Positions 15,787 through 44,756 of a DNA stretch of 44,949 nt are shown one piece after another. The notes beneath the pieces were generated by a model, which was not told the DNA's origin, searched no databases, and saw only the letters and a list, made by a program, of their open reading frames with translations. The DNA comes from an uncultured bacterium. GTDB lineage: Bacteria; Patescibacteriota; Microgenomatia; UBA1400; UBA12108. Within the stretch, counting starts at the first letter, position 1; each line of letters starts with the position of its first letter. Location: NCBI GenBank assembly GCA_903945195.1, contig CAJAUT010000010.1:1-44949 (forward strand). Reading direction: 5' to 3'. The position numbers and the translations under genes were made by a program.

Positions 15787-16242
15787 ATGATCAATAAACA
15801 AGCAGCTGTCAATTTTTTACAAGAAGTAAATATATTGACAGCTGCTTTAGTAGGAGAGCGCGGACCCATCTCTACACCGCTTCTTTTTGCCGTTGAAGAT
15901 GATCTCTCCGCTCTATATATTGCCACCCACAAAGATAGTTACAAATCCAAAGCTCTTCTTGCAAACCCTGCCATAAGCGCCTCAATTTGGCAATTTGAAA
16001 AAATGCTTATCCAATTAGATGGCATAGCCAAAGTAGTCTCAGATCAGGCAGAGACCTCAAAATATATCGACAAATTAGTTTCTTCTGTTGGTCGTCTCAA
16101 ATCTTTCTGGCCTCCAGTTTTACAAATCGAAGGGGACAGCTACATAGTCTTTGCCATCACCCCCACCTGGATTCGCGCTCTAGATCTAAGCAGTCCCACG
16201 ATATTATCAGGAGACAATCCTTTTACGGAAATTACCATATGA
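15787..16242 (+). CDS. Pyridoxamine-phosphate-oxidase-fold protein (FMN-binding-like)
   Basis: A 151-residue protein resembling the general stress/pyridoxamine 5'-phosphate oxidase-like split barrel: LTAALVGERGPISTPLLFAVEDDLSALYIATHKDSYKSKALLANPAISASI is the usual strand order, with Ser/Lys residues in the segment that binds flavin phosphate. The substrate is unknown. It lies in the pilus operon between the major pilin and a receiver and overlaps the receiver by 4 nt. Why a flavin-type protein sits here is not clear. Confidence 0.75.
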   Translation: MINKQAAVNFLQEVNILTAALVGERGPISTPLLFAVEDDLSALYIATHKDSYKSKALLANPAISASIWQFEKMLIQLDGIAKVVSDQAETSKYIDKLVSSVGRLKSFWPPVLQIEGDSYIVFAITPTWIRALDLSSPTILSGDNPFTEITI

Positions 16243-22070: not shown

Positions 22071-23207
22071 ATGTTACTTACTGATTTTGCCTACGATCTA
22101 CCCACAGAGCTTATTGCACAGGAACAAGCGGTTCCTCGCGACTCTGCCAGGCTCATGCTCATAAATAGGTCTAGTGGTGAGATCTCGCACCACCATGTCT
22201 CTGATTTACCCAAGCTATTGCCTCCAGATTATTTTATCGTGGCAAACAATACCAAAGTCTTCCCCGCTCGTCTCATGGGTCACAAATCAACAGGGGGTAA
22301 AGTAGAGATCTTACTCACACAACCCCTTGGCCACTCTAGCTATCTCTGTATTTCAAAGCCAGGGTTAAAATTAGGTGATATCGTGCGCTTTCAGGGGTCA
22401 GACCTTGAAGGACGAGCCCAACCGCCAGACTCAAAGGCGGGAAGGTCTGACCCCACAGGATACGAAAGAGTGATAAAATTTAATCAAGAAGAGTCTATGC
22501 TCCGGACCACCCTCTCAACTATTGGCACCATGCCCACTCCTCCATACATCAAAAAATTACTTGGCAACTCAAAAGACTACCAAACTATCTATGCCAAATA
22601 CGGCTTCTCTGCCGCTGCTCCTACGGCCGGTCTCCACTTTACACCTCAACTTCTCAAAGATATCAAAGTAGATCATAGTTGGAACGAACTTACCCTCAAT
22701 GTTGGCCTAGGCACTTTCCTCCCAGTTAAGGAAAACGATATCCAGAATCACCATATGCATAGCGAGTCCTACACCATCTCACCTACCGCCGCCTCCGCAA
22801 TAAATAAACAAAGGTCGGACCTTTGTTTAAAGCTCCTTTCTATCGGCACCACCACCATGCGCGCACTCGAGTCAAACGCCGCCCTACCCCCTAGTTCCCA
22901 TAGTTCCGATCTTAGAGCGGTCTGCAGCGGAGCGAAAGATAGATCGGAACTTTTGCGATCCGGCTCCTTCTCAACTAATATCTTTATCTACCCACCCTAC
23001 AAGTTCCAACTAGTAGATGCCCTTATGACCAATTTCCATTTACCAGGCAGCACACTACTCATGCTCGTCTCCGCTTTTTGTAGCTCACCCAACTCAAACG
23101 AAAAATTCACTAATTTTGCTGACTCTCTCCTAGGTCGCGCCTATGCCATAGCTATAAAGGAAAAATATCGCTTCTTCTCATTCGGCGACGCGATGCTGAT
23201 TATCTAA
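22071..23207 (+). CDS. queA: S-adenosylmethionine:tRNA ribosyltransferase-isomerase QueA, with insertions
   Basis: A 378-residue enzyme that adds the cyclopentene ring precursor to 7-aminomethyl-deazaguanine in tRNA during queuosine synthesis. Core motifs are intact: the N-terminal LPTELIAQEQ, the AAPTAGLHFT motif (about 183-193), LNVGLGTF and the C-terminal TNFHLPGSTLLMLVSAF. It is longer than the usual 340-350 residues because three palindromic segments lie inside the frame (about residues 108-129, 246-253 and 277-295), all in frame and in poorly conserved places. TATAAT ends 6 nt before the ATG, suggesting a leaderless mRNA. No other queuosine genes are nearby. Confidence 0.95.
   Translation: MLLTDFAYDLPTELIAQEQAVPRDSARLMLINRSSGEISHHHVSDLPKLLPPDYFIVANNTKVFPARLMGHKSTGGKVEILLTQPLGHSSYLCISKPGLKLGDIVRFQGSDLEGRAQPPDSKAGRSDPTGYERVIKFNQEESMLRTTLSTIGTMPTPPYIKKLLGNSKDYQTIYAKYGFSAAAPTAGLHFTPQLLKDIKVDHSWNELTLNVGLGTFLPVKENDIQNHHMHSESYTISPTAASAINKQRSDLCLKLLSIGTTTMRALESNAALPPSSHSSDLRAVCSGAKDRSELLRSGSFSTNIFIYPPYKFQLVDALMTNFHLPGSTLLMLVSAFCSSPNSNEKFTNFADSLLGRAYAIAIKEKYRFFSFGDAMLII
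22394..22454 (+). repeat. Palindromic element 1 inside queA (GGTCAGACC core)
   Basis: A perfect 13-bp stem (22394-22406 with 22442-22454) encloses an inner CCGCC/GGCGG stem. It adds about 20 residues (GSDLEGRAQPPDSKAGRSDP) between two QueA strands and keeps the frame. The same GGTCTGA/TCAGACC arms occur in the intergenic element at 25706-25747. Confidence 0.85.
22806..22828 (+). repeat. Palindromic element 2 inside queA (GGTCGGACC core)
   Basis: A 10-bp perfect inverted repeat around a CGG loop, encoding KQRSDLCL. The core GGTCGGACC is shared with the intergenic hairpin at 44732-44756. Confidence 0.75.
22902..22951 (+). repeat. Palindromic element 3 inside queA (AGTTCCGA arms)
   Basis: An 11-bp perfect stem (22902-22912 with 22941-22951) with a 28-nt loop, read through in frame. 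The left arm with its CCCAT flank matches the element inside the gene at 25784 (26026-26060). Confidence 0.8.
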
Positions 23208-23329: not shown

Positions 23330-23350
23330 ATCACATACCCGGTATGTGAT
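23330..23350. repeat. Perfect palindrome at the end of the rluD-like gene
   Basis: ATCACATACC, one base, GGTATGTGAT: 10-bp arms around a single base. It spans the stop codon of the minus-strand pseudouridine synthase gene. No U-tract follows, so a plain terminator is doubtful. The preceding 123 nt after queA hold nothing else recognisable. Confidence 0.55.
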
Positions 23351-24125
23351 TCACTGGCGCGCCCATATACTTGAGCGCGTCATTGAGCTCAGTATTGGTC
23401 GATTCAAAATGAATTCGTTTCCCATTGCGCGGATGCTCAAACTCTATCCTCTGTGCCTGCAGCATGACTCTATTGCACCACTTTCTATCTTCCCTATTTC
23501 TCTTGCGTCCAGCATAGTCAAAATCCCCTACGATCGGGTGACCCATCTGCTTAGCATGCACGCGGATCTGGTGAGTTCGTCCAGTTTTGGGTAAAAATTT
23601 GACCAGTGAAAATCCTACATACCCCCTATCATCCACTTTTAGTTCTTTGGGGAACTCCCAGGTCGTATATTCACTTAGCACTTCATAAGCAGTCACGCTC
23701 TCGCGCCCGTCCTCACGTACCCCAAACTTCTTGCGATCATCACGTCTCCTAGCTATAGGCAGGCATATCAGTCCCTCTCTAGCCTCCCAGTATCCATGGG
23801 TGAGCGCCTGATATTGTTTTTGCACCCCACGCTCCTTAAATTGTTTCAGTAGGCTCACAAATGCCTCTACAGTCTTAGCCATCACCATCACGCCACTAGT
23901 TTCTCTATCCAGTCTATGTACGAGTCCACTACGCTCCAAGAAATACTTTTCATCCTCACTTTCAACTTGATGGACTTTATGAACTTGTAACTGCTGGCTA
24001 AAGCGCTCTTCCCACCAGTCCTGGAGAGTCTCCCCCTGCACAGTGTCCGCCCTATTGCACACGATCCCAGATGGCTTGTCGATCACCACTATCTCACTAT
24101 CTTCAAAAATGATTTGTATTTCCAT
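23331..24125 (-). CDS. rluD: RluA-family 23S rRNA pseudouridine synthase
   Basis: A 264-residue enzyme that isomerises uridine to pseudouridine in rRNA (or tRNA). The catalytic Asp is in the signature GLVHRLDRETSGVMVMAKT (about 75-93). Further motifs are GRTHQIRVHAKQMGHPIVGD and the final MLQAQRIEFEHP. No N-terminal S4 domain is present, so it is a short member; the exact target (RluA, C or D type) cannot be told. TATAAT ends 7 nt before the ATG. It follows lspA on the same strand after 95 nt. Confidence 0.88.
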   Translation of the reverse strand: MEIQIIFEDSEIVVIDKPSGIVCNRADTVQGETLQDWWEERFSQQLQVHKVHQVESEDEKYFLERSGLVHRLDRETSGVMVMAKTVEAFVSLLKQFKERGVQKQYQALTHGYWEAREGLICLPIARRRDDRKKFGVREDGRESVTAYEVLSEYTTWEFPKELKVDDRGYVGFSLVKFLPKTGRTHQIRVHAKQMGHPIVGDFDYAGRKRNREDRKWCNRVMLQAQRIEFEHPRNGKRIHFESTNTELNDALKYMGAPVNHIPGM

Positions 24126-25705: not shown

Positions 25706-25747
25706 AAGGTCTGATCTTGTAGGCGTAGTCCTACGAGGTCAGACCTT
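25706..25747. repeat. Intergenic palindromic element (GGTCTGA arms)
   Basis: A 17-nt stem (25706-25722 with 25731-25747) with two mismatches and an 8-nt loop lies between lgt and the divergent 25784 gene. The arms match queA element 1. Confidence 0.75.
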
Positions 25748-25783: not shown

Positions 25784-26257
25784 ATGCTATCAATCAGTCA
25801 TGCCGCAACAGGCGCCTTTATCGCAGTCAAAATAGGCAATCCTATACTTGCCATTCCTCTCATACTTTTGTCACACTATCTAGAAGATGCCGTCCCTCAC
25901 TGGGACGCGGGCACAGGCCTTGGTAGCGGCAAAAAGACGAGGAGCGACGCTATAAAGCACGGCATCGTAGATCTAATACTTGCCGGTATCATTGTCCTAG
26001 TTTTCTACTACCCTCGTTTCCCCATAGTTCCGAACCTTGCGGATGCGAGTGTTCGGAACTTTGCACCTTACTGGGGTGCTTTTGTGGGTCTCATTCCAGA
26101 TTTTCTCGAAGCTCCACGGAACTTCCTCAAATACGAACCCTGGTTTTTAAAACCTTTAAACAAATTCCATCACATCTTCCATCACTCTATCCCCTCTGCC
26201 ATCGACGGCCTCGCCCCCCAAGTCTTACTGCTTATTATCCTTTGGATTTTTCGCTAA
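25784..26257 (+). CDS. YdjM/phospholipase-C-like membrane-associated hydrolase family protein
   Basis: A 157-residue membrane protein beginning MLSISHAATGAFIAVKIGNPILAIPLILLSHYLEDAVPHWD. His and Asp residues in SHAATG, SHYLEDAVPHWD and KFHHIFHH fit the metal-binding pattern of the inner-membrane hydrolase group related to YdjM. The substrate is unknown. TATACT ends 6 nt before the ATG. A palindromic element (26026-26060) is read through in frame, adding IVPNLADASVRNF between two helices. The gene runs towards the tRNA-Leu gene. Confidence 0.65.
   Translation: MLSISHAATGAFIAVKIGNPILAIPLILLSHYLEDAVPHWDAGTGLGSGKKTRSDAIKHGIVDLILAGIIVLVFYYPRFPIVPNLADASVRNFAPYWGAFVGLIPDFLEAPRNFLKYEPWFLKPLNKFHHIFHHSIPSAIDGLAPQVLLLIILWIFR
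26026..26060 (+). repeat. Palindromic element in the 25784 gene (AGTTCCGAAC arms)
   Basis: A 10-bp perfect stem (26026-26035 with 26051-26060) around a 15-nt loop. The CCCATAGTTCCGA left side is the same as in queA element 3. It is in frame. Confidence 0.8.
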
Positions 26258-33288: not shown

Positions 33289-34500
33289 ATGCAAAAACAA
33301 AATCTACAAACACTTAAAGGTTTCCGCGACTTTTTACCTGCCGATGTCTACAAACGTCAGTGGGTCAAAGACATCATGGTCAAAACAGCAGAGGCCTGGG
33401 GCTTTGAACCCATCGAAACCCCCACCATTGAGTCCTACGAAGTTTTTAAAGGTGAAATCGGCGAAGACGAAAAACTCTTTTATAAATTCACAGATCAGGG
33501 GAAACGCGAAGTGATGCTTCGCTATGACCAGACAGTCCCCACTTGCCGCTACGTCGCTGCCAACCAAAATGATCTAGTCTTCCCCTTCCGCCGCTACCAG
33601 ACTCAGTCGGTCTTCCGTGCCGAAAATAGCCAGCGTGGCCGTTACCGTGAGTTCACCCAGTTTGATCTAGATATCTTCGGAGTTGCAGGTCCGAGTGCTG
33701 ATGCAGAGGTCATCGCAGTCAACCTAGATACACTTCTAAAAATCGGCTTCAAAAAACCAGTCATCATTTTCAACAATCGCGATCTTATGAAAGATATACC
33801 CTATGACGCAATCGTGGCCGTCGACAAACTCAAAAAAATAGGTCGTGACGGCGTGATTGTTGACATGATAAAAAAAGGCATCTCAGACTCAGATGCAAAT
33901 AAATATTTCGACGCCATTGCAAATATTCAGCCAGATGAAACCATCAAAACCATCATCTCCTATCTAGAGAAGTCTGGGTTTGGTAGTGAGTATTATCGCT
34001 TCGAACCTACGCTCGCCCGTTCATTCTCTTATTCCCAAGGTCCTATCTGGGAGATCGTGATCGAAGATTACACTGTCGGCTCTGTCGGTGGCGGCGAACG
34101 CTACGACGGCATGATGCAGCGCCTTACAGGTTTAGACATGCCAGCTACAGGCATGGCCTGGGGCTTTGATCGTACGGTAGAAGCCGCCGATCAGCTCGGC
34201 CTCATCCCAGCACTCATTACCAAGACCCAAGTACTTGTAACCATCTTCGCCCCCGACCTTCAAGGCCAGGCCTTGAAGGCTGCGCGCGCTCTACGCGGAT
34301 CAGGGATCAATACCGAGCTTTATCCAGATCCATCTGCCAAGATGGAGAAGCAACTCAAATATGCCGACAAAAAATCTATTCCCTATGTCCTTGTGATAGG
34401 GACTGATGAAGCAGGCAAAAATATGGTCACTCTCAAAGATCTAGCGACTCGGCAGCAATCCACTCTAGCCATTGACGAAGCCATGGCTAAACTGCGATAG
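33289..34500 (+). CDS. hisS: Histidyl-tRNA synthetase
   Basis: A 403-residue class II synthetase. Motif 1 with GFRDFLPADVYKRQWV start, motif 2 with RAENSQRGRYREFTQFDLD, the histidine-specific GSVGGGERYDGM and motif 3 with GMAWGFDRT are all present. The anticodon-binding domain (about 315-403) is normal. A perfect 11-bp palindrome with one-base loop (34257-34279) lies in this last domain. TATAAT ends 8 nt before the ATG, suggesting a near-leaderless message. Confidence 0.97.
   Translation: MQKQNLQTLKGFRDFLPADVYKRQWVKDIMVKTAEAWGFEPIETPTIESYEVFKGEIGEDEKLFYKFTDQGKREVMLRYDQTVPTCRYVAANQNDLVFPFRRYQTQSVFRAENSQRGRYREFTQFDLDIFGVAGPSADAEVIAVNLDTLLKIGFKKPVIIFNNRDLMKDIPYDAIVAVDKLKKIGRDGVIVDMIKKGISDSDANKYFDAIANIQPDETIKTIISYLEKSGFGSEYYRFEPTLARSFSYSQGPIWEIVIEDYTVGSVGGGERYDGMMQRLTGLDMPATGMAWGFDRTVEAADQLGLIPALITKTQVLVTIFAPDLQGQALKAARALRGSGINTELYPDPSAKMEKQLKYADKKSIPYVLVIGTDEAGKNMVTLKDLATRQQSTLAIDEAMAKLR
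34257..34279 (+). repeat. Perfect palindrome inside hisS
   Basis: CCTTCAAGGCC, one base, GGCCTTGAAGG. It encodes DLQGQALKA in the anticodon-binding domain. The design (10-11 bp arms, 1-4 nt loop) matches palindromes at 23330, 21577 and 44732. Confidence 0.6.
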
Positions 34501-44707: not shown

Positions 44708-44731
44708 ATCTAGTATTTTACCAGACAATTA

Positions 44732-44756
44732 CTTTAAGGGTCGGACCCTTAAAGTG
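44732..44756. repeat. Perfect palindrome upstream of ychF (GGTCGGACC core)
   Basis: ACTTTAAGGGT, loop CGG, ACCCTTAAAGT. A partial direct copy (CCCTTAAAGTGCA) follows. The core is that of queA element 2. The rest of the stretch to 44815 shows a TATAAT at 44780-44785 and no gene. Confidence 0.75.

Follow-up and report, generated by a model that had tools for sequence, protein, structure and literature searches.

Introduction

REPs lying inside genes were catalogued in 2013 in Opitutus terrae, Thauera, Xanthomonas, Rickettsia conorii (as the intragenic repeats RPE-4 and RPE-6) and others; many of them lie in repair and tRNA-related genes, and the two RPEs have been described as belonging to the REP/REPIN-RAYT system (PMC3733652). 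RPEs proper are about 150 bp long (PMC10969869). In REPINs two inverted REP units enclose a short spacer, in REPtrons a gene for an HUH tyrosine transposase is bordered by matching palindromes (PMC3116915, PMC8266576), and both arrangements recur in the genome described here.

The window, a stretch of 44,949 nucleotides, makes up contig 10 of a 34-contig genome that totals 1,049,355 bases and is 97.6% complete. Neither of the ribosomal proteins uL30 and bL9 had a match in this genome; most control genomes have them. Absence of the two is the pattern of Microgenomates-type CPR bacteria. The best named relatives of its QueA, about 45% identical, include Woesebacteria and Shapirobacteria besides many Clostridia, and we infer a Microgenomates-like CPR lineage. 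A literature search for REPs, RAYTs or in-gene palindromes of CPR bacteria, with most subscription journals outside its coverage, found no relevant report.

Three palindromes within queA

The identity of QueA is confirmed by profile (350.8 bits to NCBIfam NF001140; both NF001140 and TIGR00113 above cut-off), and a fold search returned known QueA structures (1vky, 1wdi, 1yy3) as its only strong matches. Three perfect inverted repeats whose arms measure 11 nt or more lie in the gene, far above chance: synonymous-codon shuffles give 0.017 on average (maximum 1 in 2,000 trials). An earlier note on this DNA had described the same three hairpin segments, here called E1, E2 and E3 (Table 1), and all were recovered, E2 being one nucleotide wider on each side than described. 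E1 consists of two inverted GGTCWGACC units spaced 48 nt; its outer bounds are inferred from other copies of the family. The stem of E2 resembles both the TTTACAAAG..CTTTGTAAA family and the flanks of one RAYT-like gene (L012), and its core GGTCGGACC is common to the intergenic palindrome at 44731-44755. The exact E2 sequence was found once only, its outer stem and core alone being common to other families, and E2 is the weakest of the three as a candidate mobile copy.

Table 1. Palindromic elements of the window, with the flanks of the RAYT-like genes and further sequences of the same genome
Feature	Position in window	Strand	Description	Sequence or encoded peptide	Basis
queA	22071..23207	+	tRNA preQ1(34) S-adenosylmethionine ribosyltransferase-isomerase, 378 aa; three palindromic elements		ORF list, profile match
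E1	22388..22459	+	REPIN-like, family C1; inverted-repeat core 22394-22454	encodes GSDLEGRAQPPDSKAGRSDP	
E1 arms	22394-22406/22442-22454		13-nt arms, perfect inverted repeat	GGGGTCAGACCTT-35-AAGGTCTGACCCC	
E2	22805..22829	+	25-nt perfect palindrome; 12-nt arms 22805-22816/22818-22829	TAAACAAAGGTCGGACCTTTGTTTA	
E3	22902..22951	+	family F; 11-nt arms 22902-22912/22941-22951	AGTTCCGATCT-28-AGATCGGAACT; encodes SSDLRAVCSGAKDRSEL	
Palindrome	23330..23350	.	3' end of pseudouridine-synthase-like ORF 23331-24125(-)	ATCACATACCCGGTATGTGAT	
Intergenic pair	25706..25747	.	two inverted CCTACGAGGTCAGACC-type units, RAYT-flank type	AAGGTCTGATCTTGTAGG / CCTACGAGGTCAGACCTT	
Family F variant	26026..26060	+	inside ORF 25784-26257 (157 aa)	AGTTCCGAACCTTGCGGATGCGAGTGTTCGGAACT	
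Family D palindrome	34257..34279	+	in histidyl-tRNA synthetase gene (33289-34500); ungapped against relatives	CCTTCAAGGCCAGGCCTTGAAGG; peptide LQGQALK	
Intergenic palindrome	44731..44755	.		ACTTTAAGGGTCGGACCCTTAAAGT	
Family A				ATCAAACTCCSGGAGTTTGAT	
Family E				TTTACAAAGAACSGTTCTTTGTAAA	
RAYT-like gene L013, flank			family A	ATCAAACTCCSGGAGTTTGAT	
RAYT-like gene L010, flank			plus AACCTTCAAGGATGATCCTTGAAGGTT inside own frame	CCTACGAGGATGATCCTTGTAGG	
RAYT-like gene L011, flank			CCTTCAAGGTGTAACCTTGTAGG nearly the Mur ligase D element	CTTCAAGGTGTAACCTTGTAGG; CCTTCAAGGTGTAACCTTGTAGG	
RAYT-like gene L012, flank			F copies often start TGCAAAGTTCCGATC	TTGCAAAGTTACGATC	
Element-encoded peptide stretches				GSDLEGRAQPPDSK, SSDHSPKIAQGSE	

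Insertion or replacement

Distances between conserved anchors and motifs in QueA were compared with those of 66 relatives, of which the nearest is about 64% identical. The segment that holds E1 has 83 residues where the relatives have a median of 76 (5-95% range 75-78), a gain of 7 for an element of 20 codons; that of E2 has 25 against 24, a gain of 1 for a palindrome of 8 codons; and that of E3 has 36 against 17, a gain of 19. Orthologs from the same bacterial family (57-64% identical) agree with these distances. By this measure E3 is a clean insertion and E1 a partial one, E2 sits in codons that the relatives also have, and the reading of all three palindromes as insertions was rejected on the net gains. 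The excess of about 30 residues that had been attributed to three insertions is therefore borne out for E3, partly for E1 and not for E2. No aligned relative has the E1-E3 peptides, so the outcome that the earlier note had named as refuting, the same peptides in relatives that lack the palindromic DNA, does not occur for QueA. One relative, G003, has another palindromic insertion (ACTGTCCTT...AAGGACAGT, +25 residues) at the E1 site.

In an AlphaFold2 model of QueA of moderate quality (mean pLDDT 73.8), pLDDT is about 47 in the stretch that holds E3 and about 53 in an inter-strand loop that contains part of E1, and E2 covers a helix end. A surface-loop position, which the earlier note had suggested checking, is thus supported by the model for E3, likely for E1 and not supported for E2. 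E1 and E3 lie in loops that the model predicts with low confidence, and the motifs conserved in QueA are intact, so that the protein probably retains its activity. We take the elements most likely to be passengers, either neutral or of slight cost, with no function in QueA.

Families dispersed through the genome

The arm families of queA, for which a genome-wide search had been proposed, do have dispersed copies. BLAST finds eight more matches to E1 in the genome, and the core GGTCAGACC occurs 57 times against 5 for a reversed control. Among the 88 genomes of the order an excess this strong is seen in this one only; the other 87 have none comparable, and an order-wide enrichment of GGTCAGACC was rejected (it is weak in G021). 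G021, which belongs to a different family within the order, carries GGTCAGACC as inverted pairs with a distance of 61 nt (e.g., C18:36/97, C72:1984/2045 and C79:3866/3927), apparently an independent expansion. Units of the GGTCWGACC type form inverted pairs 48 nt apart (C1, the QueA type) or 71-75 nt apart (C2), or occur as a single CCTACGAGGTCAGACCTTGTAGG (C3). Family F, which includes E3, has 15 copies genome-wide, family B (CCTTCCGGGAGWCTCCCGGAAGG) 13 and family D (CCTTCAAGG-n-CCTTGAAGG) seven, each against none in its control. Element units span 21-90 nt.

Within the window, related copies had been pointed out outside queA, and they were found in intergenic DNA (25706-25747 and 44731-44755) and in an ORF (26026-26060). 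An exact second copy of the palindrome ACTTTAAGGGTCGGACCCTTAAAGT occurs on a different contig, within a ComM-like (Mg chelatase) gene. The palindrome ATCACATACCCGGTATGTGAT resembles the CACACCCGGTGTG family in genes of G003, a resemblance that makes it a candidate member only. Genes of G003 at L164, L169, L174, L198 and L208 carry repeated CACACCCGGTGTGAAGGGCGCCCACACACCGGGTGTG elements, to which window 23330-23350 and L055:17996 look related. Outside the named families, an inverted repeat with 19-nt arms (89% complementary) lies at window 15800-15847, near the start of ORF 15787-16242.

Elements inside genes

The in-gene survey took in 430 kb from this genome and, from two relatives, 0.96 Mb. 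Coding sequence of the 430 kb has 61 inverted repeats (arms of at least 10 nt, spacer at most 60 nt) against 17-26 after synonymous shuffling; for G003 the count is 56 versus 21-40 and includes palindromes of other families. Coding sequence of G001 shows no palindrome excess (10 against 6-11 shuffled), and the trait therefore varies within the bacterial family. In the 430-kb sample about 30 genes carry family copies, about 39 in all, and the products of these genes by Pfam and NCBIfam include LeuRS, ValRS, HisRS, ArgRS, TGT, DnaX, UvrC, MiaA, ComM, UppS, ComEA, a formyltransferase and a Mur ligase. The relative position of the palindromes within genes runs from 0.05 to 0.98. Two queuosine-pathway enzymes, QueA (window 22071-23207) and TGT (L048:19005-20000), carry family F elements, and a 495-aa protein with a Wzy_C-like domain (L045:8608-10095(-)) has four REPIN-like elements in frame.

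All 15 F copies, and nine of the ten B copies examined, fall within open frames that run for at least 100 codons. ORFs make up 92% of the sampled sequence, so that 15 of 15 F copies in genes has a chance of about 0.29; an enrichment in genes was rejected as unremarkable at this coverage, and what the data show is that genes are not avoided, with no preference for them. Nine of ten 41-nt F copies are read in one frame (SSDHSPKIAQGSE or a close variant), when three of the six frames are open (chance about 0.001), and all in-gene C1 copies have the same reading orientation; both biases are consistent with selection for peptides that can be tolerated.

In-frame palindromic insertions relative to orthologs are also found in TGT, ValRS, the formyltransferase and others, and the longer elements mostly add residues. 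In a set of insertions of at least six residues relative to relatives, collected blind to palindromes, arms of at least 10 nt occur in 8 of 47 gene insertions versus 13 of 470 random segments from the same genes. Palindromic elements therefore account for a real share of the protein insertions of this genome.

RAYT-like transposases

Y1_Tnp is encoded by five genes of the genome. The product of one, at 146 aa, is of IS200 size, and those of the other four have 219-258 aa. The four longer proteins match NCBIfam REP_Tyr_transpos at 37.6-57.8 bits, below the equivalog cut-off of 80, and are therefore taken as divergent RAYTs; that of L010 has the HUH motif PNHFHL. All four genes are bordered by palindromes, and the flanks match families A, D/C3 and F/E. 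GGTCAGACC itself was found flanking no RAYT gene of this genome, and the link of E1 to RAYTs is the weaker one, through the outer ends (CCTACGAGG..CCTTGTAGG) that it shares with RAYT-flank units.

Of the 88 genomes in the order, 14 have D palindromes, and Y1_Tnp is present in all 14 of these versus 28 of the 74 others (Fisher p = 8e-6, which overstates independence, the genomes being related). In G007, G008, G026, G028, G029 and G032 the D palindromes are inside RAYT frames or no more than a few hundred bases away, which is the REPtron layout. The RAYT-like genes of several genera have an in-frame D-type palindrome plus flanking copies (L010 ORF 1273-2049(-), palindrome at 1765; L244, L250, L252, L257), placed just upstream of the PSR..KNY motif in the cases read. 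Such a palindrome might regulate the transposase.

Shared sites and short palindromes

Besides QueA, other proteins carry palindromes at sites shared between lineages. The same UvrC codons hold a B palindrome (CCTTCCGGGAGACTCCCGGAAGG) in this genome and a D palindrome (CCTTCAAGGTCCGTCCTTGAAGG) in G003; LeuRS has an F element here and GAAAGCACCTGCGGTGCTTTC nearby in G003; and the Mur ligase has an identical D palindrome in both. Either a few loops accept insertions again and again, or elements already in place get replaced.

Palindromes of 19-25 nt predict a gain of 7-8 residues if inserted, yet those of B, D and E2 often add few or none. B palindromes alter the length by a net -5 to +2 residues, the D palindrome of HisRS by 0, E2 by +1, E2b by +2/-3, and A palindromes by +4 and +8. 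Insertion followed by trimming may explain this, as may loop-length variation among proteins 50% identical, and codons might also have been replaced. One conceivable though doubtful route to replacement is that single-stranded hairpins released by RAYTs anneal at microhomologies and overwrite an equal length of the gene. A mobile element would then alter protein sequence with length unchanged, and lineages would end up with different palindromes at the same codons, as with CCTTCCGGGAGACTCCCGGAAGG versus CCTTCAAGGTCCGTCCTTGAAGG in UvrC.

Origin of the elements

We think it probable, from their sequences, that E1-E3 are short non-autonomous hairpins of the REP/REPIN type, dispersed by RAYT-like HUH-tyrosine transposases of the same genome. 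The families are dispersed, lie in frame in many conserved genes, and match or resemble palindromes at RAYT-like genes. The RAYTs would nick hairpins where DNA is single-stranded, for which the replication fork is the probable place, and would then paste copies elsewhere; copies in genes would persist only if the frame is kept, no stop falls in frame, and the mostly polar peptide is tolerated. To our knowledge RPEs have no assigned transposase, and an RPE-like selfish DNA with its own RAYT-independent mechanism would make the palindromes at RAYT genes coincidental. In-frame, gene-embedded copies, several families per genome and conserved peptide frames are all as in RPEs (PMC10969869), but the RAYT flanks have sequence in common with the families, D palindromes are limited to Y1_Tnp genomes and clustered at RAYT genes in several genera, and units of 21-90 nt are below the RPE length of about 150 bp; we regard this origin as unlikely.

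Functional DNA or RNA sites under selection (binding, uptake, attenuator or mRNA hairpin), whose position in the gene follows their function, are very unlikely, even though the one-base-centred perfect palindromes resemble protein-binding sites, the competence gene comEA is present, and several short palindromes take up codons without added length. Copy numbers are low (7-57) and the many families unrelated, the palindromes share no position within genes, and relatives have different palindromes at the same site (UvrC, LeuRS and QueA). A DNA uptake sequence was rejected on the same low copy number and many families. That quasi-palindromes were perfected locally, gene by gene, by template switching, and are not dispersed elements at all, would accord with the single occurrence of the exact E2 sequence and with the different palindromes at the same UvrC codons in two genera; identical 21-41 nt sequences recur in unrelated genes, however, which contradicts it for families B, C, D and F and renders it extremely improbable overall. 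Template switching is possible for E2 alone, and could be the reason that many palindromes are perfect.

Comparison with known systems

If the elements are REP-like hairpins moved by RAYTs, a Microgenomates-like CPR bacterium joins the Proteobacteria and a few further phyla as a host of gene-embedded mobile palindromes. Its intergenic space is small, and the elements lie in aminoacyl-tRNA synthetases, tRNA-modification enzymes and the replicative clamp loader. They would form a natural test set for how much protein length a random selfish insert can add, which loops are tolerant, and whether RAYTs are active at present, and the different palindromes at one site among lineages offer a way to order insertions. 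They also carry a warning for annotation, as an additional loop in a protein of this kind may stem from mobile DNA and not from adaptation.

The idea of the earlier note, that mobile palindromes spread inside genes as they do in Rickettsia, is supported by the dispersal through the genome, by the insertions seen against relatives and by the link with RAYT-like transposases. The best match is the REP/REPIN-RAYT system and not the RPEs of about 150 bp generally. Like RPEs (PMC10969869), the elements lie in frame in unrelated conserved genes, have one preferred frame and peptide per family, and are absent in relatives; the in-frame palindromic insertions of QueA (E3 +19, E1 +7), which orthologs lack, are a case of this. 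They differ in being 21-90 nt long and tied to RAYT-like genes; sequence homology with RPE families would not be expected across phyla. REP-like features are the many dispersed palindromic copies, the occurrence as singles and inverted pairs, and the RAYT-like genes with cognate flanks, while a mainly extragenic location is not seen for F and B. Compared with REPINs and REPtrons, there are here four divergent RAYT-like genes in a 1.05-Mb genome and tens, not hundreds, of copies, and some genera have a REP inside the RAYT reading frame. The tag GTAG/CGTC at the hairpin foot was found within 6 nt of 1 of 43 copies, versus 236 of 3,000 random sites, and membership of the GTAG/CGTC REP superfamily was rejected on this count. 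The intragenic GTAG/CGTC REPs are alike in being short palindromes, single or in inverted dimers, in frame in known genes, with two insertions in one gene and different REPs at about the same site in recB of two Xanthomonas species (PMC3733652). Most described REPs are intergenic, whereas here a large share of copies is in genes and short forms often appear to replace codons, and a CPR-like lineage goes unmentioned in the parts of the catalogue consulted (PMC3733652). What sets the present elements apart is their lineage, the lack of a GTAG/CGTC tag, their density in essential genes, the same-site palindromes of related genera and the short, apparently codon-overwriting palindromes. They are best matched as REP-like elements, gene-embedded REPs being already known, with REP/REPIN-RAYT as the closest system.
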